Positions 1-9,052 of a stretch of DNA of 51,515 nucleotides are shown here, in pieces. The notes below the pieces were generated by a model, which did no database searches, had not been told where the DNA came from, and was given only the letters and a program-made list of their open reading frames with translations. This DNA comes from Bacteroidales bacterium (GTDB lineage: Bacteria; Bacteroidota; Bacteroidia; Bacteroidales; F082). The stretch is from contig JAFZXP010000018.1 of the NCBI GenBank assembly GCA_017616735.1, positions 1 through 51,515 on the forward strand, in the 5' to 3' direction. A program made the position numbers and the translations under genes. Position 1 is the first letter of the stretch. The number at the start of each line of letters is the position of its first letter.

Positions 1-998
1 GGTCGTCGAACACGTAAGAGCGGATCTGCGAGCCCCACTCAATCTTTTTCTTCGACGCCTCGATTTTGTTTTTCTCCTCCATGCGGTGCTGCAACTCCTT
101 GTCGTACAGCTGCGATTTCAGCAGTCGCAAAGCGTTTTCCTTGTTTTTCGGCTGGTCGCGCGTCTCGGTGTTTTCAATCAGAATCTCCTCTTCGTGACCA
201 TCGTAAGGGTCTTTGTATTGATATCTCAAACGCACTCCCGACTCCACCTTGTTCACATTCTGACCGCCAGCGCCGCCGCTTCGGAAAGTATCCCATGTCA
301 AGCGTGACGGGTCGATAACGATTTCGATGGTATCGTCGATCAATGGTGACACAAACACCGAGCTGAACGACGTCATTCGTTTACCTTGGGCGTTGAATGG
401 CGACACGCGCACGAGGCGGTGCACTCCGTTCTCGCCTTTGAGGTAACCGTAGGCGTAGTCGCCGTCGATTTCCATGGTCACTGACTTGATGCCGGCATCG
501 TCGCCTTCCAAAATATTACTGATTCTCACCTTGTAGTCATGAGCCTCGGCGTAGCGCATATACATACGCATCAGCATCTCGGCCCAGTCTTGCGACTCTG
601 TTCCGCCCGCGCCCGCGTTGATTTTCAGCACGCAGCTCATCGAGTCTGCCTCGTCATGAAGCATATTGCGGAACTCAAGGTCTTCCACTAGTTTTATGAC
701 ATCGGCGTATTGCTTATCGACCTCTTCTTCCGTGGCCTCGCCTTCCTTGGCAAAATCGTACAAAACGCCGAGGTCGTCGTTGTTTTTCACGATCTCGTCG
801 TACGCCGTCACCCAGCTTTTCACGTCTTTGATCTGGCGCATTATTACCTTGCCGTTTTTCGGGTCGTCCCAAAAACCGTCGGCTTTCGTTTTCTCTTCTA
901 ATTCAGCTATTTTCGACAGTTTGGTGTCGATGTCAAAGATACCTCCTCAAGGCATCAATCCTCTTACTCAGTTCTTTTATGCTGTCTAAAGTGACCAT
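1..998 (-). CDS. prfB: Peptide chain release factor 2, 3' end outside window, programmed +1 frameshift
   Basis: Releases finished proteins from the ribosome at UGA and UAA codons. The catalytic GGQ loop is visible on the minus strand near 255-275 (SGAGGQNVNK). Downstream of it runs the usual RF2 segment ending at the window edge (EWGSQIRSYVFDD), so the C-terminus is missing. Translation starts at the ATG at 996-998 and reads MVTLDSIKELSKRIDALRRYL, 21 codons, before an in-frame TGA at 933-935. A +1 shift at CTT-TGA-C continues into DIDTKLSKIAELEEK and the rest of RF2. This is the classical autoregulation: low RF2 slows termination at UGA and favours the shift. A gene caller that ignores the shift will truncate the protein. 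Confidence 0.95.
932..947 (-). promoter_or_regulatory. prfB programmed +1 frameshift site
   Basis: Read on the minus strand the site is AGGAGG TAT CTT TGA C. The internal Shine-Dalgarno-like AGGAGG (942-947) lies three bases before the slippery CTT (936-938), and the TGA stop is at 933-935. Spacing and sequence match the well-known RF2 recoding signal. The AGGAGG stands out because normal genes in this window rarely carry a Shine-Dalgarno sequence. Confidence 0.95.
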
Positions 999-1044
999 GT
1001 TAATATAAGGTGTAATTCTTTAATTTAAAGATTCAAATTTTTTG

Positions 1045-1052
1045 CAAAATTA
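1045..1052 (-). promoter_or_regulatory. Probable prfB promoter -7 box
   Basis: Minus-strand TAATTTTG matches the Bacteroidota TAnnTTTG box and lies 47 bp upstream of the prfB ATG. No TTG at the expected -33 spacing was found, so the call rests on the -7 box and its position. Confidence 0.5.
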
Positions 1053-1064
1053 GTAATTTTTTCA

Positions 1065-1472
1065 TCACGTCGTAACCAACTGCAATTCTTTACCCAAAGA
1101 ATGAAGCGCATTGACAATTTTATCCTGTTGTTTTTTCATAGGATGGCTTCTTCCGCAGATATAATGCCCAAGTTGTCTTTCATTGATACCTGTTAATCTT
1201 GACAAAGCCGCTCTGGTGATAATTTTATCATAACAATACAAAAGTGTTTGAATATTCATTTGATATTCAAGGACATATTGACCATCAAAAACTTTTGGAT
1301 AATCTCTCTTATCAGCTTTTGCACATTCGATATAAAAATCGATACTTTCCTGAACATATTTAGCAAAATCGGAAAAATTGCCTGTAAATGCAACCACCCA
1401 GCCCGGTAGCAATTCGCAGCTGGCGCTGAATCCGTTTTCTGTTTTCGATGTTGAAATGATGACTTTTTCCAT
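1065..1472 (-). CDS. hicB: HicB-family antitoxin with C-terminal helix-turn-helix
   Basis: 135 residues. The N-terminal half (about 1-60) has the short-strand pattern of the HicB partial RNase-H-like fold (MEKVIISTSKTENGFSASCE). The C-terminal half (about 80-130) reads as a DNA-binding helix-turn-helix (ALSRLTGINERQLGHYICGR). HicB neutralises HicA and represses the shared promoter. It starts one base after the stop codon of the upstream toxin gene, so the two are one operon in the order toxin then antitoxin. The N-terminal domain is divergent; the call leans on the pairing with a clear HicA and on the HTH tail. Confidence 0.8.
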   Translation of the reverse strand: MEKVIISTSKTENGFSASCELLPGWVVAFTGNFSDFAKYVQESIDFYIECAKADKRDYPKVFDGQYVLEYQMNIQTLLYCYDKIITRAALSRLTGINERQLGHYICGRSHPMKKQQDKIVNALHSLGKELQLVTT

Positions 1473-1473
1473 A

Positions 1474-1671
1474 TTAAAACTCTATTCCAGATTGATTTTC
1501 AATGCTTTTCAATTCAAACCCCCAAGTATCATCACTTGGTTTTCCATTAACCGTAACAACTCCAGATTTTTCTGGGTGTTTAAACTGTCGGTGACTACCT
1601 TTTTGACGATCGATATACCAACCTTTTGCTATCAATTTTTTAATAATTAAACTAACTTTAACCACCTTCAT
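1474..1671 (-). CDS. hicA: HicA-family mRNA interferase toxin
   Basis: 65 residues, the normal size for HicA. The protein has the hallmark GSHRQF segment (residues about 26-31, with the catalytic His), followed by a basic strand with KHPEKSGVVTVNGKPSDD, as in the dsRBD-like fold that cleaves mRNA. It is the first gene of the pair, downstream of a promoter with an internal palindrome. Expected to arrest translation when its labile antitoxin is lost. The ATG at 1669-1671 sits just downstream of that promoter. Confidence 0.9.
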   Translation of the reverse strand: MKVVKVSLIIKKLIAKGWYIDRQKGSHRQFKHPEKSGVVTVNGKPSDDTWGFELKSIENQSGIEF

Positions 1672-1694
1672 AAATTCAGTTTTTTAGTTCTCGG

Positions 1695-1725
1695 CAAAAA
1701 TAGTAATAATACTATTACTTGTCAA
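1695..1725 (-). promoter_or_regulatory. hicAB promoter with internal operator palindrome
   Basis: On the minus strand TTG (1723-1725), 20 bp, then TATTTTTG (1695-1702) fits the Bacteroidota -33/-7 promoter well. The spacer is filled by an 18-bp imperfect palindrome, 1702-1719 (plus strand agtaataat-actattact, two mismatched positions). This position fits autorepression by the HTH of HicB. Inference from position; no binding data. Confidence 0.75.
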
Positions 1726-1795
1726 GAGTTTTTATGAAAAATTTTTATTCTTCTGCAAAAATATAGTAAAAAATCTTTGGTTTTTGATTTTTAAC

Positions 1796-1842
1796 AATTT
1801 TTAACATAAATAGTAATAATATGATAGATTATGTTAAAAATT
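1796..1842. repeat. A/T-rich 13-bp inverted repeat carrying a second operator-like half
   Basis: AATTTTTAACATA (1796-1808) is perfectly complementary to TATGTTAAAAATT (1830-1842). The 21-base loop contains aatagtaataat, the same 12 bases that begin the hicAB operator at 1700-1710. It lies about 100 bp upstream of the hicAB promoter and could be a second repressor site or a hairpin. Immediately after it is another small palindrome, CGCCAT-tat-ATGGCG (about 1855-1869). Confidence 0.55.
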
Positions 1843-1876
1843 TTTAGCATTTTACGCCATTATATGGCGATTTCTT

Positions 1877-2070
1877 GTTCCTTTTTTCTTGACAAAAAAG
1901 GAACTGAAAAAGTCAAGGCCCGAAATAATCGGAACCACCCTGCAGCCGAGCTAAGGCTGTGATCCTCAACGCGGGAAGTGCTTTCTTCGAAAGCAAACGA
2001 CTAAGCGCCCCGCTTGAGTATCAGCGCCTTATCTCGTCTTTTTGGCCACCGCTGCCCCGCGATTCGGGCC
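1877..2070 (+). repeat. Structured repeat element, left copy (inverted relative to the copy at 7746-7936)
   Basis: The element begins with a hairpin, GTTCCTTTT...AAAAGGAAC (1877-1904). A core of 154 bp (1917-2070) follows, bounded by perfect 8-bp terminal inverted repeats GGCCCGAA / TTCGGGCC. Inside are shared blocks such as CCCTGCAGCCG, GTGATCCTC, AGCAAACGACTA, TTGAGTATCAGC and CACCGCTGCCCCGCG. Internal stems can form, for example TGATCCTCA with TTGAGTATCA around GCGGG/CCCGC. The second copy lies in opposite orientation past the restriction cassette. Flanking-hairpin and core types of this kind recur in Bacteroidota intergenic regions. Whether it is a MITE-like element or an RNA is not known. 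It abuts the 3' end of the helicase gene at 2095, so it may also end that transcript. Confidence 0.8.
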
Positions 2071-2094
2071 GGGCCCACGCACAATTTTTCTTTC

Positions 2095-4626
2095 CTACTT
2101 CGCAACTATAAGCCGTGTTTCATCTTTACGGATACGGCTTTCGAATGTACCAACATACTCATCGTCTTCATGACGGTTAACTCCAGTGTATTCCAACGAG
2201 CTGTCTTCGTAACGGCGGAATTTCAAAATGGCATCATTCATCTGATCGCTATTGAAAACTCCAAGCGAAACCAGCAATTCAAAGTCTGGAATGGTCAGCG
2301 ACGTGACGCGCAAGAACAACTCCGGTTCAAGCTTGCGAATTATATCGGTCAAGGCCTCCTCGCGAAAATCGGTAAGATACATGAAAATAGGTATACGAGT
2401 GGCAAATTTCATCAGTTTTTCCTGTACCTGCCGACGCTTGCTCTTGTATTCCTTTTCCTCATCAGTCAGTTGTTTCTTCTCTTTTGGAGTGATATCGTCG
2501 CCTTTTCGCTTCAAATTCTTGATTTTCTCTGATTTATTGACGATTGTTTCGATAATATCGCCACCCAAAGCGCGGAAACCTTCAATTTTCATTATGGCTT
2601 CCATAGCCGCCTTGTTGTTCAACACTCTTCTTAAAGTCAAATTGTCAACATTTACCAAAGTCGCACTGTTCCAACGTCGTGCCAAAAGCGTTGCAGTAGT
2701 GCCATTATCGACAAAATCAAGGATTTCCGTAGCATTTACAATCTGCATGCTGCTGCCATCAAATTGTAATATTGGCAAAAAATCTATGAAATCTCCAACT
2801 TTTTGTGTGGCGTTTTTATGAATATCGGTATTCAACCGGTTAGCGTAACTAACCACTTGCCTCAAAGCGCGATTCGGTGCAAAATCGAACACATAGCACG
2901 TCTGCTTCTGTATTATTTTACTCTTGTTTTCGCCTTCAACAACCCATGGCGACTGCACACGAAACGCCGACTGGAAATAGGTTTCGGGCGACGAGCAGTT
3001 ACGCAGCATGAAAATCGCCGACAGTGGCTTGATTGTCACTCCAGTGGTAAGTTTTCCACAAGTAAGAGTGATGGTTTTCGTCAATACAGGATTGTCGCCC
3101 ATGGCATCTTTGACTGGTTCCAAAGCTTCCAAACCCGTTCCCACACTGGAACCGCTGCAATTTACTATTGTATAGTTTTGATAAAAATTGTTGGCCGGAC
3201 GACGCAAAAGGGTTTCCATCGCATCGCACGATGCCACACTGCTCATAAACCACATCGAATGGTTGCAAAGGTCAAGCAATCGTCTGTCGTTATATGGCAA
3301 TGCAGGAGGCTCATTAAGTGGTGAACTGTTATCGTTGAAGATTGAAGCTTTACCTCTGATGATATCAAGCCATTTTTGCACAGCATTTTCATGCACAAAA
3401 CGAGCGTTCTTTCCCTTCCCATCGGCTTTGAAAAACTCGTTCAGGTCAAACTCATCCATATCGTATTGTTCAATCAATTGGCCTAGATCGTTGGGCATTT
3501 GATATGTCATCATAACCATTGTTGGCAACTCAAGATACGGATTAGGTTTGCCTTGATATTTTTCTTTCTTATCCTGTTCGTCCTGATATGTCCAGTTGAA
3601 AATCTGATTTTCCAAAAACTCACCATTTGCGATAGCACGGAATGGCGTTCCGCTCAGATAAAGATAATAACTGCCCGTGATTGGCATCTGATCCTCATCG
3701 AAAAGCTTACCGCTGATGGTGTCATAACCGTCTTCCTGCAAGATGTCGTTCATCTCCATCAGTTCCTCTTTCGACGAGCCTTCACCGATGTCCAACAATG
3801 TTTTGGCATTCTCATTCCATGCTCCGAAATGATACTCATCAAGCACTATCAGATCCCAATTAATGCCATGTACCCACTCGTTTTTCGGCTTAATTCCTCC
3901 CGACTTGCTTTTGCCAAGATAATCCTGAAACGAGCCGAAACAAACAATAGGTTTGTCTTGCAGCAATTCTTCCGGCGAACCTCCATCGCGACTGCTGAAA
4001 AACTGCCAACCTTCGAAGTCGATATGTTGCAAAAGGTCATCTCGCCATGCGCCTTCCACCGCCGGTTTGAATGTAAGCACCAGCACACGCTTTGCTTTCA
4101 TCTTTTTAGCCAACTGATATGTGGTGAAAGTCTTGCCGAAACGCATTTTTGCATTCCAAAGAAAATGAAGGGGTTCGTCTTTACCATGAGGTGTCTGTGT
4201 GAAATAGTCGTAAGTCTTCTGCACTGCCCAAGCTTGCTCATCTCGCATCGGAAAGTCGAGCGTACGCTGGGTTTCCATCTGGCGACGGTGCTTAACAGCC
4301 AAATAAGCCGCTTTGACATCTTCGACTTTGCAACGGAACCACTCGCCTGCAGTGTTTTTAAAGCCGTTACGACGCAAACATTCATGCACAGCATGATCGC
4401 GAAAATGCTCACCACTGCCATCTGCATAAAAGGCCGGTGCATACCATTCCAATTTATACGTCTTTCCTGGAGTGATAATTGGATGTTGCTCCTCGAGACG
4501 TATATTCACATCCTCCCTGGTGGTGTCGCCGATCTTCAGTTGACCCGGGAAATGGCTATCGCTGTAAGCATAAATCTGCGGTGTAAACCGCCTGTGTTCC
4601 GGAAGAATTTCTTTTTGAGTCTTCAT
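2095..4626 (-). CDS. Restriction protein: GIY-YIG-like nuclease domain fused to SF2 helicase
   Basis: 843 residues from the ATG at 4624-4626. A TTG 21 bp upstream is also open, but it would place the palindrome at 4636-4660 inside the gene, so ATG is preferred. Residues about 18-105 resemble the T5orf172/MUG113 branch of GIY-YIG nucleases (IYAYSDS, QLKIGDT, then GEWF). The helicase follows: Walker A NAKMRFGKTF at about 158-167, Walker B VLDEYHFGAW at about 261-270, and a motif VI-like QSAFRVQSPW. The charged region with many Lys/Glu near 720-760 looks coiled-coil. It sits downstream of an adenine methyltransferase pair and an XRE regulator, so it is the probable DNA-cutting, ATP-dependent partner of a restriction-modification system. 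The target sequence cannot be inferred. Confidence 0.8.
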   Translation of the reverse strand: MKTQKEILPEHRRFTPQIYAYSDSHFPGQLKIGDTTREDVNIRLEEQHPIITPGKTYKLEWYAPAFYADGSGEHFRDHAVHECLRRNGFKNTAGEWFRCKVEDVKAAYLAVKHRRQMETQRTLDFPMRDEQAWAVQKTYDYFTQTPHGKDEPLHFLWNAKMRFGKTFTTYQLAKKMKAKRVLVLTFKPAVEGAWRDDLLQHIDFEGWQFFSSRDGGSPEELLQDKPIVCFGSFQDYLGKSKSGGIKPKNEWVHGINWDLIVLDEYHFGAWNENAKTLLDIGEGSSKEELMEMNDILQEDGYDTISGKLFDEDQMPITGSYYLYLSGTPFRAIANGEFLENQIFNWTYQDEQDKKEKYQGKPNPYLELPTMVMMTYQMPNDLGQLIEQYDMDEFDLNEFFKADGKGKNARFVHENAVQKWLDIIRGKASIFNDNSSPLNEPPALPYNDRRLLDLCNHSMWFMSSVASCDAMETLLRRPANNFYQNYTIVNCSGSSVGTGLEALEPVKDAMGDNPVLTKTITLTCGKLTTGVTIKPLSAIFMLRNCSSPETYFQSAFRVQSPWVVEGENKSKIIQKQTCYVFDFAPNRALRQVVSYANRLNTDIHKNATQKVGDFIDFLPILQFDGSSMQIVNATEILDFVDNGTTATLLARRWNSATLVNVDNLTLRRVLNNKAAMEAIMKIEGFRALGGDIIETIVNKSEKIKNLKRKGDDITPKEKKQLTDEEKEYKSKRRQVQEKLMKFATRIPIFMYLTDFREEALTDIIRKLEPELFLRVTSLTIPDFELLVSLGVFNSDQMNDAILKFRRYEDSSLEYTGVNRHEDDEYVGTFESRIRKDETRLIVAK

Positions 4627-4635
4627 TATATGTTT

Positions 4636-4660
4636 ATTAACAATCAATTACATTGTTAAT
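4636..4660. promoter_or_regulatory. Palindrome between the XRE gene and the helicase gene
   Basis: Perfect 9-bp arms ATTAACAAT / ATTGTTAAT around CAATTAC. It lies in the 57-bp gap between the XRE regulator stop and the helicase ATG. Possible regulator binding site or weak hairpin controlling restriction gene expression; inference from position. Confidence 0.45.
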
Positions 4661-4683
4661 TGACACGATGAAGACCGATTCGT

Positions 4684-4971
4684 TTAATGAGCGATTTCTA
4701 TAATAGACACGCCCAATGCCAATTGAATCAACGCAATGGTTTTGCAAGTAAAATTATGTCCAAATGCAAACCATCTTGAAACTTCCGACTCTTTTTTACC
4801 TGTGAGACGAGCCAAATCTCTTTTGCTCAATCCCTTTTCATTCAATGTTTTGTATATCTTTTCAGATATACTGAAATTTAATTCAAACGATGCTCTCTCT
4901 TGAGGTGTAATTGGATCATACGCCTCTTTTAAAATTGGTGAATAAATCTTTGTATGGTTATCTGTTTTCAT
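4684..4971 (-). CDS. XRE-family helix-turn-helix regulator in the restriction cassette
   Basis: 95 residues. Residues about 38-85 form a Cro/C1-type HTH (KGLSKRDLARLTGKKESEVSRW). Its ATG overlaps the TGA of a 34-codon upstream ORF (ATGA), so the two are probably translated together. The gene lies between the methyltransferase genes and the helicase gene and has its own promoter and palindrome upstream. It could be a controller protein delaying restriction, or the antitoxin half of a degenerate toxin-antitoxin pair. The first role fits the position better. Function inferred from context. Confidence 0.75.
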   Translation of the reverse strand: MKTDNHTKIYSPILKEAYDPITPQERASFELNFSISEKIYKTLNEKGLSKRDLARLTGKKESEVSRWFAFGHNFTCKTIALIQLALGVSIIEIAH

Positions 4972-5072
4972 GATAATTGAAAAACTTTTCCTTCGATTCC
5001 GGTAATTACATTTTTCTCAATCGTCACCGCCTTATCCGTCTGCTCCAACGTCTTAATACTTACTTCTTTCAT
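4968..5072 (-). CDS. Small ORF, 34 codons, overlapping the XRE gene
   Basis: ATG at 5070-5072, TGA at 4968-4970. The peptide begins MKEVSIKTLEQ and ends GIEGKVFQLS. It starts about 23 bp downstream of a good -7 box, and its stop overlaps the next ATG as ATGA. No family was recognised. It may be a leader peptide that couples translation to the regulator, or the remnant of a toxin. Support is position, promoter and overlap only. Confidence 0.5.
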   Translation of the reverse strand: MKEVSIKTLEQTDKAVTIEKNVITGIEGKVFQLS

Positions 5073-5094
5073 AACCACTCAATTAATAACGATG

Positions 5095-5135
5095 CAAAGA
5101 TAACACTTTTTTTCACATATTTAACATATATGTGA
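5095..5135 (-). promoter_or_regulatory. Promoter and operator of the small ORF / XRE / helicase transcript
   Basis: Minus-strand TATCTTTG (5095-5102) is a perfect TAnnTTTG box. Upstream, at 5113-5135, is an inverted repeat with perfect 8-bp arms TCACATAT / ATATGTGA around a 7-base spacer, overlapping where the -33 region should be. Layout suggests repression by the XRE protein, giving the helicase separate control from the methyltransferases. Confidence 0.65.
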
Positions 5136-5177
5136 AATTTTTTCAGTCTTCATCATGTCAAAGAGCAAAAAACACTG

Positions 5178-6725
5178 CTATTCCATCGGTTTTATCATCG
5201 ATTCAATAAATGCTATCTCGTCTTTATCCAAATTGTATTTTTTGTACAACATCTCATCAGTCCAAGGATGAGAAAAATCTTGGAGAGGGATTAGTTCAAA
5301 GGTTCTTGTAGAAGCATTTTTCTGACCACGATTAAAGAACAAAAGTGCTCTAAAAAATTTGGTTTTAATGTATGATAGGCAATTACTTGCTTCATACTCT
5401 TTTTCAAATGGACCAATTCTCAAAAATGTCTCAGTCGCTATTTCATTTGGTTTTGCAAGAATAGGCTGTGGTGGAACTGTAGCGGTAGTAGTGTACGCAT
5501 AAGAAAAGAAAATTTTGAACTTTCTGATTTCATCTATCGCCTGTGAAGGGAATTTACTAGAAACAAATCCGACAACTCTTTTTGCACCACCTTTGTTACC
5601 TTTAACTCCAAATATTTTCACAGAATTCGGAAATGGACTTTCAGAAAGTTGACTTTGAGGATAATTTTCAGGAGCATTAAACAAATCTGTCGCAATTCCA
5701 TAAGGTTTTCTTGTTGAAACTATCTTACTGAATGAATCTACCCTTTGTTTGGAAACCTTTCTAATAATCGAAATCTGCCTTGGATCTCTAACTATCAAAT
5801 CTGAATAATCAACTTTTAAGTATCGAGAAGAACGATGGGTCTCGCCATCCAACGATTGGTAGCAATAATCCACAGGACCGTTATAACTAGAATCCCATAG
5901 GAAATAGCTAACGCCGCCATCAATATGAAGTCCTTGAAAACATTTTGAAGCATCTTCATAATCAAAGATATACCTTATTCTTGTATCCGAACGCATAATC
6001 TGCCTATAATCATCTAGTCCTTTCCCTCCTTTCATCCATCGGGAAGGGGTGATCATTATCAAATATTTAGGTTTCAATAGTTTTGCCTGTTCAACAAAAA
6101 GATGATATAAAGGTTTAGCACTATCTCCAGTACCTCCACCATCATCCATCTGATACGGCGGATTTCCAATAATTACGTCAAATTGCATATTTTTATTAAA
6201 TATTTCATTTATACTCTTGTGAATGAATGGATAAGCATAGTTCTCACCAGTTTCATCGCGGTCGTATTGGACTTGGTTAGCGCCACATTTCTTGCACTTT
6301 CCATTTTCCCACTTATGCTCACAGCGCATGTAACGCAGATGGCCTTGCTCGTCATTAAAACATGTAGCCACTGAATATTTGCCATCGGCTTTCTTGGCGC
6401 AATAAAGCGTGCGTCGTCCCATTTCGGCCGTGAGTCGCGTCAACGCGATGCCAAACAGCTGCTTACTCATAATGTGGTCGATGCGTTTTTGAAGGTCGGG
6501 GATTTCTTTTTCCAAACCTTTCAACAGGCGTTTCGCTATCTCACGCAGAAACACACCGCTTTTGCAACACGGGTCGAGAAATGTCGTTTTCGAATTGCTG
6601 AACAGCTCTTGCGGCAACAGATCAAGCATCTTATTGGCAAGTTCAGGCGATGTAAAAACCTCGTCACTGCTAAGATTTGCCAAGCAGTTGAGGATGTCGG
6701 TGACATGAACGTTATTTGGTTTCAT
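5178..6725 (-). CDS. N6-adenine DNA methyltransferase, Eco57I-like, catalytic subunit
   Basis: 515 residues. SAM-binding motif I is seen as FLDPCCKSGVFL (about 49-60) and catalytic motif IV as NPPYQ (188-192). A small zinc-ribbon-like Cys/His cluster (CEHKW..CKKCG, 135-148) sits between them. The C-terminal half (about 260-500) has the features of a target recognition region. It protects host DNA by methylating adenine. The ATG lies 14 bp inside the 3' end of the 214-residue upstream gene, so the two are co-translated. Motif I here is DPCCKSG rather than the usual DPxxGxG, a known variant of this group, so binding of SAM may need the partner. Confidence 0.88.
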   Translation of the reverse strand: MKPNNVHVTDILNCLANLSSDEVFTSPELANKMLDLLPQELFSNSKTTFLDPCCKSGVFLREIAKRLLKGLEKEIPDLQKRIDHIMSKQLFGIALTRLTAEMGRRTLYCAKKADGKYSVATCFNDEQGHLRYMRCEHKWENGKCKKCGANQVQYDRDETGENYAYPFIHKSINEIFNKNMQFDVIIGNPPYQMDDGGGTGDSAKPLYHLFVEQAKLLKPKYLIMITPSRWMKGGKGLDDYRQIMRSDTRIRYIFDYEDASKCFQGLHIDGGVSYFLWDSSYNGPVDYCYQSLDGETHRSSRYLKVDYSDLIVRDPRQISIIRKVSKQRVDSFSKIVSTRKPYGIATDLFNAPENYPQSQLSESPFPNSVKIFGVKGNKGGAKRVVGFVSSKFPSQAIDEIRKFKIFFSYAYTTTATVPPQPILAKPNEIATETFLRIGPFEKEYEASNCLSYIKTKFFRALLFFNRGQKNASTRTFELIPLQDFSHPWTDEMLYKKYNLDKDEIAFIESMIKPME

Positions 6726-7356
6726 AGCTGTAGATTTTTGTATAATGTACTAATGGAAACTCGCGCACCGGCTCATCGAAATGCTGAGCCTCGCCCTGCT
6801 CGTCAAACAGAGAATACTGGTGTTCTTTCTTAACCAGAAAATCGAACTGAAAATCGCGTCGTTGCACCTTGTCGCCAATGAATGTCCACTCGCTGAAAAC
6901 AATAGGTTTGCCGTCGGCAGCGGTGTATGTCAGGGCATCGCCTTGAACTATATTGCGGTTGAGGAGGTAACGGAGGTTTTTGTGAAAACCATCATATGTT
7001 TTTTGAGACGTTTCGGGAAACGTCTCTACAATGTATTCGAACAAACGATTCCGGCATTGTTCGGCATTATCGGGCAGCAATTCAATGCCATATACGCTGC
7101 TGACTGCCTGTAATGTGTATTTCTGAAATTCGGATGTATTGCGGCTGTAGCGTGTCGCCACGGTATTCATTTTTCGGCGAAGAATTTCGATAAGGAAATT
7201 GCCGTCGCCGCATGCGGGTTCAAGGAAACGGCTGTCGATGCGTTCCGACTCGTCTTTCACCAAATCGAGCATCGCGTTCACCTCGCGCGGGTTGGTAAAC
7301 ACCTCACCATGGTCAGCCACCCGCTTTTTGGATTTCACTTGGGTGCTTTCGGGCAT
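6712..7356 (-). CDS. Methyltransferase-like partner subunit with SAM motif I but no NPPY
   Basis: 214 residues. A clear motif I, FLEPACGDGNFL (44-55), lies downstream of the GEVFTNP segment typical of adenine methyltransferases. The place of motif IV is taken by IVFSEWTFIGDKVQRRDFQF, with no NPPY/DPPY. It overlaps the next gene by 14 bp. In related Bacteroidota cassettes this short protein sits next to an Eco57I-like methylase and is labelled restriction subunit M, so it is probably a genuine small partner rather than a broken gene. Residues around the ETFPETSQ segment are encoded by a repeated palindrome (7005-7026), which suggests a past insertion. Confidence 0.75.
   Translation of the reverse strand: MPESTQVKSKKRVADHGEVFTNPREVNAMLDLVKDESERIDSRFLEPACGDGNFLIEILRRKMNTVATRYSRNTSEFQKYTLQAVSSVYGIELLPDNAEQCRNRLFEYIVETFPETSQKTYDGFHKNLRYLLNRNIVQGDALTYTAADGKPIVFSEWTFIGDKVQRRDFQFDFLVKKEHQYSLFDEQGEAQHFDEPVREFPLVHYTKIYSYETK
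7005..7026. repeat. 22-bp palindromic repeat inside the methyltransferase gene
   Basis: GAGACGTTTC-gg-GAAACGTCTC, perfect 10-bp arms. With the next four bases (ctaca region to 7030) it is identical over 26 bp to 13204-13229 in the amidohydrolase gene. It contributes an in-frame ETFPETS stretch to the protein. Confidence 0.85.
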
Positions 7357-7432
7357 TTGCTATTTGTTAATTTCTTAAATTTTTAGCAATTTGCCACGAA
7401 TCCCCACCTTATCGACTATCCTACGACCATAT

Positions 7433-7459
7433 AAAAAAGGAGGCGAGCACCTCGTCTCC
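7433..7459 (-). terminator. Intrinsic terminator of the candidate small RNA
   Basis: Minus strand GGAGACGAG-gtg-CTCGCCTCC followed by six T. One A/C mismatch interrupts a 9-bp stem. It lies 77 bp upstream of the methyltransferase start, so read-through would be needed for this promoter to serve the cassette. Confidence 0.75.
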
Positions 7460-7641
7460 TGTCTGCGGCCGTAGGATGCCGGGAAAGAATAGACAAAAAT
7501 GCTCGCTTTGATACGAGCATCTGCTTTTGTCGTTCTTTTCCTTTGAAATTTCCTACGTTTCAGACAGGCCGGAACAAATAGCAAACGCTATGTTATGTAA
7601 TATTATTTACTCTTCTATTTCTATCTTATAATGTTTGTTTT
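7433..7641 (-). ncRNA. Candidate structured small RNA, 6S-like rod with intrinsic terminator
   Basis: A promoter (7648-7677) and a terminator (7433-7459) define a transcript of about 210 nt. In RNA order, CCTGTCTG (7561-7568 on plus as its complement) and CGTAGGA (7551-7557) pair with TCCTACG (7470-7476) and CAGACAGG (7458-7465). Further in, GGAAAAGAA pairs with TTCTTTCC, GACAAAA with TTTTGTC, and ATGCTCG with CGAGCAT. Together they make one long interrupted rod. Length, rod shape and independent transcription recall bacterial 6S RNA and the Bacteroidales-1 motif. That assignment is from memory and not tested. A third CGTAGGA copy near 7419-7425, just past the terminator, could compete for pairing. 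An ORF of 69 codons across the stems is not considered real. Confidence 0.6.
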
Positions 7642-7647
7642 ACATTG

Positions 7648-7677
7648 CAAAATTAGAAATAATTTGGCATAAATCAA
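7648..7677 (-). promoter_or_regulatory. Promoter of the candidate small RNA
   Basis: Minus strand TTG (7675-7677), 19 bp, TAATTTTG (7648-7655): a good match to the Bacteroidota -33/-7 promoter. Confidence 0.7.
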
Positions 7678-7745
7678 AATTTTTTGAAAAAAGTAATTAT
7701 TTATCTTGGCTTCGCCCCCAGGTCGCTCTGCGGTGCGGGCGGGCT

Positions 7746-7936
7746 GGCCCGAATCGCGGGGCAGCGGTGGCCCAAAAGCCGGACTAAGCGGCTGATACTC
7801 AATGCGGGGCGCCTAGTCGTTTGCTTCTGGAAGAAGCACTCCCCGCCATGAGGATCACCGTCTTAGGACGGCTGCAGGGGCGGCCGATAATTCGGGCCTT
7901 GATCTTTTGGTTCCTTTTCCATCAAGGGAAAAGAAC
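7746..7936 (-). repeat. Structured repeat element, right copy
   Basis: Reverse-complement counterpart of 1877-2070, clearly homologous along its whole length by eye (roughly four positions in five). The core 7746-7898 is bounded by the same GGCCCGAA / TTCGGGCC 8-bp terminal inverted repeats. The flanking hairpin (GTTCCTTTTCC...GGAAAAGAAC, 7910-7936) is also kept. Several stems differ in sequence but remain paired between copies, for example CCGTC/GACGG here against CAGCC/GGCTG in the left copy. Confidence 0.8.
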
Positions 7937-7962
7937 TATAAAGCCGCCCCCTCTCGGGGCGT

Positions 7963-7989
7963 AAAAAAAAAGGACGCTGTTAAGCGTCC
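7963..7989 (-). terminator. Terminator of the DUF4421-like gene
   Basis: Minus strand GGACGC-ttaaca-GCGTCC followed by nine T, 25 bp after the stop of the gene at 8015-9052. A second GC hairpin (CGCCCC/GGGGCG) lies at about 7944-7961. Confidence 0.85.
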
Positions 7990-8014
7990 AATAAACCAAT
8001 TGAATGACGAACCA

Positions 8015-9052
8015 TCACAATCGAATTCCGATAAAGGCAAATATCTGCCATTGACTATTGGTCGTTATCAATTTATTGTTACTGAAATTCGTCCAATTAA
8101 GCTGAGTCGTCGCGCCGGCAAACCATCTAGGGTTGAAATTATACACAAGGGCTCCACGGCATGCTATGAACAATTCAGGAAAATCAGAACTCGCCACGTA
8201 GTCATCCTCCATATAATTATTAACCACAGTTCTGCTATTAATCACAATATATGGAAGAGCCGACAAGTGTATGAGCATTTTTTTGAACAGCACAAAATTG
8301 TATGCGTATCCGACACCCAAGCCATACGTCACGTTTTGAAATTTAAAGAGTTGGTCGCCCGACAGAGTGTCGCCGATATTAATGGCATTCACATGAAATT
8401 CACCTCCGACAAGCAAACTGCCGGCGCTCTTTTTCTGAATAAACATCTGTGTGTACGCCGCCGGATATGAAAATTTCTTATTGTTTATGGCATAGTAAAA
8501 ATTGAAATTAAATACGGTTTGTGACACCTTTCCTTCCGGAACATCCAATTCTAAAGGCAAAGGAATATAAATTGTATCATTGTCATAGATAAGAGGAAAT
8601 TCCGACATGCCGGGAACGTCAAAAGTATACTTGCCGCTCAGGCTTAGGATACCGCTCAAGCTAAGCTCGAAACCGAATTTCTTGCCATACATATTCAGTT
8701 TTACGTCGAAATCCTGATCTTTTATGCCCTTAAGCTTTTTAAAACTGATACCTCCACCAATGGCAACACCTTTATAACCCACCTGAATGTTGAGTTTCGG
8801 CTTCAATCCGGTACTAAGTGTTGATTCAAATTTTGTGTCTTGATAATCGCCTGTGGTGTAAAATTTCTGTATCAGAGTCATAGTCCTCAACTTAAACGTC
8901 CACTTGGTGCCGACAGGACGTCCGATATATGTCGAATCGTAAGTTATTTTGTCGTAATTTCTGAACAGGAAGAATCCTTTTTTCTCTGACTCCTGCGCCA
9001 TCAGGGCGAAGCAACTTAAAATCGTTATTAAAGTTAGAAACAGTTTCTTCAT
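8015..9052 (-). CDS. Exported beta-barrel-like protein, DUF4421 type
   Basis: 345 residues with a signal peptide (residues 1-19, ending FALMAQ). A DSTYIGRP...WTFKLR segment follows, which I associate with the DUF4421 family of Bacteroidota. The remainder alternates polar and hydrophobic residues in short strands and ends in an aromatic/hydrophobic strand (IFAFIGIRL), as in outer-membrane barrels. Function unknown. It has its own -7 box (9090-9097) and a strong terminator, so it is a single-gene unit, divergent from the barrel protein at 9177. Confidence 0.65.
   Translation of the reverse strand: MKKLFLTLITILSCFALMAQESEKKGFFLFRNYDKITYDSTYIGRPVGTKWTFKLRTMTLIQKFYTTGDYQDTKFESTLSTGLKPKLNIQVGYKGVAIGGGISFKKLKGIKDQDFDVKLNMYGKKFGFELSLSGILSLSGKYTFDVPGMSEFPLIYDNDTIYIPLPLELDVPEGKVSQTVFNFNFYYAINNKKFSYPAAYTQMFIQKKSAGSLLVGGEFHVNAINIGDTLSGDQLFKFQNVTYGLGVGYAYNFVLFKKMLIHLSALPYIVINSRTVVNNYMEDDYVASSDFPELFIACRGALVYNFNPRWFAGATTQLNWTNFSNNKLITTNSQWQIFAFIGIRL

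Follow-up and report, generated by a model that had tools for sequence, protein, structure and literature searches.

Convergent pairs of a structured repeat enclose accessory genes that turn over at fixed intergenic sites in Bacteroidales

A 51,515-nucleotide contig from a Bacteroidales bacterium, referred to below as the window, carries two oppositely oriented copies of a structured repeat of about 230 bp around a restriction-modification (R-M) system. In genomes of the same genus, oppositely oriented neighbours of this element were, among the matches listed, convergent without exception, and the genes between them were swapped or absent at the same intergenic sites, here termed sockets. We lean, if only just, towards reading the elements as boundary repeats of exchangeable accessory cassettes, with exchange by element-guided recombination at fixed sockets. 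The structure of the element, the orientation rule, the turnover of cargo at fixed sockets, the empty sites and the limits of similarity at or in elements were all observed. For tracing how fixed chromosomal sites with no obvious mobile element come to hold defence and other accessory genes, the convergent repeat pair provides a search handle, the DNA between the copies being a candidate accessory cassette. Type I, type II and type IIG-like R-M systems, a type II CRISPR-Cas system with its array and a family of deiminase operons were found between such pairs.

The element pair in the window

An unguided inverted-repeat comparison of the window recovered the two opposed copies that an earlier note on this DNA had placed at the ends of the cassette. 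Copy 1 (1877..2082, plus strand) has its outer end to the left and its inner end, with a truncated tail, to the right. Copy 2 (7706..7945, minus strand), also recovered in the blastn family, is full length, with its inner end at 7706 and its outer end at about 7945. The copies scored 155.6 and 177.3 bits, respectively, against R1, the covariance model of the family; both belong to the 25 seed copies of R1 and their scores are not independent of it. Complementary arms between the copies were found at 1938-2013/7804-7879 (83%), 2014-2075/7741-7802 (85%) and 1907-1927/7888-7908 (86%). The window contains the sequence GGCCCGAA five times where 1.2 would be expected, and four of the five lie inside the two copies. 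The fold of copy 1 beat all 200 shuffles on each strand (z -4.66 and -3.19).

Copies from the window's own genome and from congeners shared one architecture, consisting of an outer stem, a GGCC stem, a long hairpin and an inner tail. The outer stem is GTTCC, GTTAC or GATAC with its complement, and its CTTGAY loop pairs with a downstream RTCAAG to form a pseudoknot. In copy 1 the outer pseudoknot was read from the sequence at 1877..1917 (plus strand; stem GTTCC..GGAAC, loop CTTGAC with GTCAAG). It is followed by the short GGCC stem and a long interrupted hairpin, which folding and covariation placed at 1951..2032 (plus strand) in copy 1, and the inner tail terminates in ...GCGACNTGGGGGCGAAGCC in the window's subfamily. 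The repeat family reported earlier is therefore real, although the element is about 230 bp and asymmetric, not 190 bp. The 8-bp arms taken for terminal inverted repeats are internal and the outer and inner ends are unlike each other, which leaves the suggestion of a miniature inverted-repeat transposable element (MITE) unsupported. The copy said to touch the last gene is copy 1, which, lacking the inner tail, ends about 12 bp past the helicase stop codon (2095).

The window's own genome, an assembly of 78 contigs totalling 2.08 Mb with 80.5% completeness, gave 10 matches with copy 1 as the query and 12 blastn matches with copy 2, two of the 12 being short pieces. Inside the pair, upstream of the methyltransferase gene, positions 7420-7560 are rich in hairpins; this is the candidate small RNA of the earlier note.

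Orientation of neighbouring copies and the sockets they occupy

Genomes are labelled G (G000 is the window's own), fetched loci L and contigs C. Congeners were represented by one assembly per species, mostly fragmented. Within the genus, R1 gave matches in 62 of the 99 genomes, counting the window's own; the totals for single genomes also count weak antisense hits to the palindromic core. Orientation, sockets and cargo were counted among the 150 R1 matches listed. There, 38 pairs of neighbours lay within 15 kb, of which 24 were convergent, with their pseudoknot ends outward, and none divergent. The proposal that inverted pairs are tied to accessory cassettes was supported, since all 24 oppositely oriented neighbours were convergent and cargo was swapped or absent at the same sites.

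Grouped by flanking genes, the 24 convergent pairs fell into 14 sockets. Several pairs were found at lysS/yicC (four), recR and cutC (three each) and gldD, a dipeptidase-like gene and MQNIS (two each). Single pairs were found at holB-like/lysS, the window site, LUD/valS, GNAT, FTCD, hic-like/ATP synthase-like, SulP-like/CoA transferase-like and G060:C14. The flank names lysS, yicC, recR, cutC, gldD, LUD, valS, GNAT and FTCD were assigned by Pfam and the others by eye; the MQNIS protein matched no Pfam family.

Genes were enclosed in 21 of the 24 pairs, and three recR pairs (G116, G020 and G077) were empty or fused. The filled pairs held R-M or CRISPR-Cas systems (8), UvrD-like helicases (3), deiminase-like operons (6) or other genes (4; L045, L245, L250 and L252), with Pfam testing covering 36 proteins from 14 of the 21. 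The first class comprised the window's split, type IIG-like R-M system (Pfam, PADLOC), a type I R-M system with AbiH (L051), an EcoRI-type methylase with a GmrSD/HNH protein (L042 and its homologue L241), an Eco57I methylase (L251) and an N6_N4 methylase (L247). It also included L253, with two C5-methylases, an Eco57I methylase, AlwI and LlaJI endonuclease matches and Vsr, and L246, a type II CRISPR-Cas locus with Cas9 domains, Cas1 and an array of 33 repeat copies spaced at 76-77 bp. UvrD-like helicases were found in L043 and L056 by Pfam, the latter matching GajB models, and in L046 by homology. A peptidyl-arginine-deiminase-like gene with variable neighbours was found in L041 by Pfam and in L044, L242, L243, L244 and L249 by homology. 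In these operons, which occupy three sockets, the variable neighbour is about 220 aa long, sometimes with a Sel1 or Sel1-like protein; the deiminase-like operon is a possible defence or conflict operon.

Turnover of cargo at fixed sockets

At the MQNIS socket, five genomes (G011, G085, G109, G063 and G017) shared the flank and the element up to its inner end and diverged beyond it, with BLAST alignments stopping at a single base, 12338 of L051, in four comparisons. The MQNIS-side element was 95.7% identical between G011 and G085, like the flanks, versus 81% to its own partner in G011. The cassettes were partly related, the G017 cargo matching that of G011 at 67-73% and the Vsr gene of G085 and G109 at 96%.

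At the GNAT socket, a 3.2-kb helicase cassette was 97% identical between G032 and G026 versus 87-91% for the flanks, and both limits of the shared stretch fell inside element sequence. Judged from these identities, the cargo was probably transferred recently. The left GNAT element of G032 is internally deleted. The window's own genome carries this socket on contig C8, where a third cargo shows 73% identity to one from a different socket in G116. Related cargo in different sockets was recorded for L048/L247 (73%) and L043/L046 (69%). At the gldD socket a helicase in one genome had a C-N hydrolase as its counterpart in another, and cargo was likewise swapped at the dipeptidase-like socket.

Empty sites were seen for the window, recR and cutC. 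In the window, about 7 kb separate the right flank, a DUF4421 gene (8015..9052, minus strand; Pfam), from the left flank (1..1000, minus strand), which we take to be the gene for peptide chain release factor 2 (prfB); this interval consists of an element, the R-M cassette, a second element and hicAB. In G081, G026, G107, G073 and G017, where the left flank matched at 95-98% by tblastn, DUF4421 adjoins prfB with no element, cassette or hicAB; the gap was 44 and 87 bp in the two that were counted. A different neighbour occurs at this site in G069 and in four matches that are more distant. The lysS-yicC site was rejected as a further empty site, another gene occupying it in G013 and G062. Inversion of the cassette, as the earlier note had envisaged, was not seen; the same cargo kept its orientation within one socket (four genomes at lysS-yicC, two at cutC).

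In the available text on the minimal mobile elements of Neisseria, a conserved gene pair holds differing whole-gene cassettes that often harbour R-M systems and are incorporated by homologous recombination alone (PMC3898611). Conserved gene pairs with differing cassettes were found here at the MQNIS, cutC, gldD, dipeptidase-like and GNAT sockets, and both the cassettes differing between the same genes and the R-M cargo are points of likeness. The difference is the covarying inverted pair that frames the cargo here, the available text on minimal mobile elements naming no paired structured repeat (PMC3898611).

On the reading that we favour, folded-DNA repeats of about 230 bp would be held as convergent pairs around accessory, often defensive, cassettes at intergenic sockets, and would tend to persist at the socket through replacement or loss of the cargo that they enclose. 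For incoming related DNA, the elements, or the elements plus flanks, would most likely serve as homology or recognition boundaries. Recombination at or within the elements would be the cause of exchange, and it may be their folded form that is recognised.

Several observations weigh against this reading. Crossovers in the flanking genes alone would equally yield swaps specific to a socket, and no exchange event was seen between strains, because the assemblies represent one genome per species and are mostly fragmented. The second MQNIS element was alike over 190 bp, with its pseudoknot head missing in G085, and the GNAT socket of G026 lacks a second element. The limit of similarity fell inside the element at L043/L250 (left) and L042/L251 (both sides), and similarity ran past the inner end by about 65 bp at L042/L241 and by about 130 bp between contig C8 and the window, where the shared stretch adjoins copy 2 on its inner side. 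Elements of L045 and L247 were 76-83% alike, below their flanks (86%). The remaining 14 of the 38 close neighbours had the same orientation, and 13 of the 21 filled pairs had no recognised R-M or CRISPR cargo. Random scatter, which the earlier note had named as the observation that would tell against a link to cassettes, does not describe the paired copies; many others were unpaired, several of them at contig ends. No candidate recombinase or other enzyme linked to the elements was identified.

The window's own R-M system points the same way. Its methyltransferase was matched in 28 of 99 genomes, and the 17 best loci outside the window were fetched (from 16 congeners, at 50-82% identity), leaving out weaker ones. 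The methyltransferase was present in 17/17, the second methyltransferase-like gene in 16/17 and the helicase gene, at least in part, in 16/17. No element was found at any of the 17 by R1 at an E-value of 0.1, nhmmer or the pseudoknot pattern; at 10 of the loci, sequence of more than 500 bp flanks the system on each side, the others being cut by contig ends. Element-free homologues were present even in the element-rich genomes G032, G073, G078 and G122. The same cassette in relatives without the repeats, which had been offered as a refutation, was thus found for homologous R-M systems. Because the homologues are element-free at 17/17 loci, the elements are unnecessary for the spread of this R-M system, the only cargo covered by the reverse search outside elements. 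The element pair marks the socket, not the R-M system.

Structure, covariation and the level of pairing

The statement that the copies differ while keeping their pairing was confirmed. In a MAFFT alignment of 25 copies, made without regard to structure, standard pairs filled 97.0% of the 1091 cells and 18 of 44 pairs had changed on both sides, values that none of 500 shuffles equalled in either respect. The covariation score was 0.269 against 0.092 for shuffled alignments (0/500 as high) and at most 0.075 for slid partners. In the pseudoknot helix, 95.2% of cells were paired and two of five pairs showed two-sided changes. In 98 model-aligned matches, an alignment biased toward the structure, the figures were 95.6% standard pairs and two-sided changes in 28 of 39 pairs.

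With all columns kept, G.U exceeded A.C, at 37 versus 3 in the 25 copies and 112 versus 23 in the 79 best matches. Two columns supplied most of the excess: in one, 70 of 75 copies have U-G, which is probably not a true pair, and the other is often unpaired. Once these were dropped, a choice made after the data had been seen, G.U and A.C were equal at 25 and 23 of 2909 cells. In a control of seven tRNAs from the fetched DNA, where overlapping stretches may have supplied the same gene more than once, G.U and A.C stood at 12 and 0 of 150 cells. The wobble pattern moderately favours pairing at the DNA level, and only moderately because the two columns were excluded after inspection. Of the earlier suggestion of an RNA structure, the conserved fold stands, and the RNA reading is only moderately disfavoured by the equal counts after column removal. 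A known Rfam RNA was rejected, the sole match in window positions 1-9000 scoring 20.1 bits against a gathering threshold of 50 and lying outside the element. No sign of concerted evolution of the pairs emerged, mean identity being 0.756 for 21 same-locus pairs and 0.750 for 107 others in the same genomes.

These counts bear on another explanation, in which the element is an insulator or transcript end on either side of accessory operons with no role in exchange, and turnover at the sockets is ordinary gene flow. The excess of G.U when all columns are kept would fit it, as would R-M homologues that move without elements and the positions of the elements, which abut 3' ends (lysS, yicC, recR and gldD) and promoter regions (cutC and a TPR gene). 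Apart from the equal counts after column removal, it is opposed by an outer stem with no following U-run, by the persistence of empty and fused pairs, and by the two window copies, which face opposite ways although each sits 3' of a minus-strand gene. We consider it improbable.

Search for a mover

No integron integrase scored above the TIGR02249 cut-off in any of 12 genomes, weaker matches being present in all 12 and in 14/14 control genomes, and identity with an integron was rejected on this ground. Integron attC sites conserve structure over sequence and mark cassette edges. The element resembles them in both respects and differs in its inverted pairs and its 230 bp with a pseudoknot. A related possibility is site-specific cassette exchange by a recombinase that recognises a folded single strand, as the integron integrase does with attC. 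Structure conserved over sequence, the sharp inner limit in five genomes and same-orientation arrays with small open reading frames (ORFs; L254-L257) speak for it; the lack of such an integrase or of any candidate recombinase tied to the elements, and the large cassettes in inverted pairs, unlike integron cassettes, speak against. We regard it as unlikely.

In those four loci (G003:C2, G102:C5, G100:C37 and G024:C36), same-orientation elements lie about 0.5-2.8 kb apart. Many spacers hold one small ORF (about 140-185 aa), partly shared and shuffled between species, and resemble cassette arrays. A tyrosine recombinase was found near an unpaired element in one case, in G073.

A composite non-autonomous transposon, in which two MITE-like elements would move the intervening DNA with a transposase acting in trans, is suggested by the long convergent inverted ends, by the clean empty sites and by cargo plus element that were common to different sockets (L325/L329, 81%, with different flanks). 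Set against these are the lack of a visible target-site duplication at the window, recR and cutC sites, where flanks have diverged, the absence of any transposase family among the 36 cargo proteins tested from 14 of the 21 filled pairs, and elements that can stay orthologous at a socket despite a change of cargo. Such a transposon appears improbable. In the available text on TIMEs and TIME-COMPs, these are derived from the Tn3 family, occur mainly on plasmids and take direct or inverse orientation (PMC13367494, PMC4133298). The likeness lies in the miniature size, about 240 bp, and in the placement at either end of the cargo; here, however, no transposon relative, target duplication or plasmid match was found, and opposite pairs were convergent only.

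The Y1 transposase had no match in 17 of the 40 genomes with at least four element matches. This is by itself a weak argument, because Y1 was also missing in 10 of 37 element-free genomes (Spearman -0.22; many genomes are incomplete). Three Y1 genes of the genus (L371, L373 and L374) were flanked by many copies of a different repeat, the short palindrome CCCCGTAGGGG, likely their own repetitive extragenic palindrome (REP). Among 991 ORFs of 118 loci with the broader pseudoknot pattern described below, two were Y1-like by motif only, and the element flanks neither. With no cognate Y1 flanked by the element, and Y1 missing in those 17 genomes, identity with REP and its associated transposase (RAYT) was rejected. 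In the available text, TnpA-REP (Y1) subclass 2.6 of Bacteroidetes is said to have atypical secondary structures on its flanks, further copies of which occur elsewhere in the genome (PMC6006769); the likeness is in folded intergenic repeats, the subclass 2.6 structures being compared by their text description.

Distribution beyond the genus

At the level of the order, 26 of 119 genomes matched R1, two of them from the genus (the window's own and one congener) and the other 24 with weak matches (best 67.8 bits). The outer pseudoknot alone was more widespread, a pattern of 23 specified bases occurring in at least 119 stretches from Bacteroidota, Balneolaceae, Rhodothermia, Chlorobiota and Calditrichia records. 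One viral contig carries this broad pattern; the full element matched no phage or plasmid record, and a phage or plasmid origin was rejected. A looser scan of the 119 pattern loci, some of which are congeners, gave 166 hits, with neighbours oriented ++ (18), -- (13), +- (13) and -+ (3). A look for genes recurring beside the broad pattern outside the genus, over 118 loci, yielded no lead. No earlier description of the element was found in the literature searched, largely without subscription papers. Extended to Bacteroidota and neighbouring phyla, the pseudoknot-headed repeats might form the recognition site of a cassette-exchange system that acts on the folded strand and would bring accessory, often defensive, genes into the fixed sockets, resembling attC except that its pairs are inverted and no integron integrase takes part; we give this wider proposal little credence.

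Genes of the window site

Between the copies, all on the minus strand, lie a T5orf172 gene with the helicase part of the split type IIG-like system (2095..4647; Pfam T5orf172, PADLOC PDLC03626 positions 179-810 of 1359), an XRE-type regulator (4684..4971; Pfam HTH_3), an Eco57I-type methyltransferase (5178..6725; Pfam Eco57I, PDLC03626 positions 860-1359, homologues in congeners) and an MmeI-type methyltransferase-like protein (6712..7356; Pfam MmeI_Mtase at 24.3 bits, below the cut-off of 27). Outside copy 1, within the accessory insertion, the minus strand encodes a HicA toxin (1474-1671; Pfam HicA_toxin) and its likely HicB partner (1065-1472; no match). The five empty sites have no room for hicAB.

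Side observations on broader pattern loci

One Balneolaceae record (L064) has a convergent pair around a TPR-like ORF and a small unit of two genes that by eye resembles ParE with an antitoxin. Parabacteroides has double-headed elements, with the heads placed back to back inside 400 bp (L077, 3290-3700; L137, 167-550); the motif AACTCGCTTCGCTC in their hairpin is also present in Flavobacterium and Elizabethkingia copies. Neolewinella aurantiaca (L068) carries five pseudoknots in the same orientation, about 750-790 bp apart.

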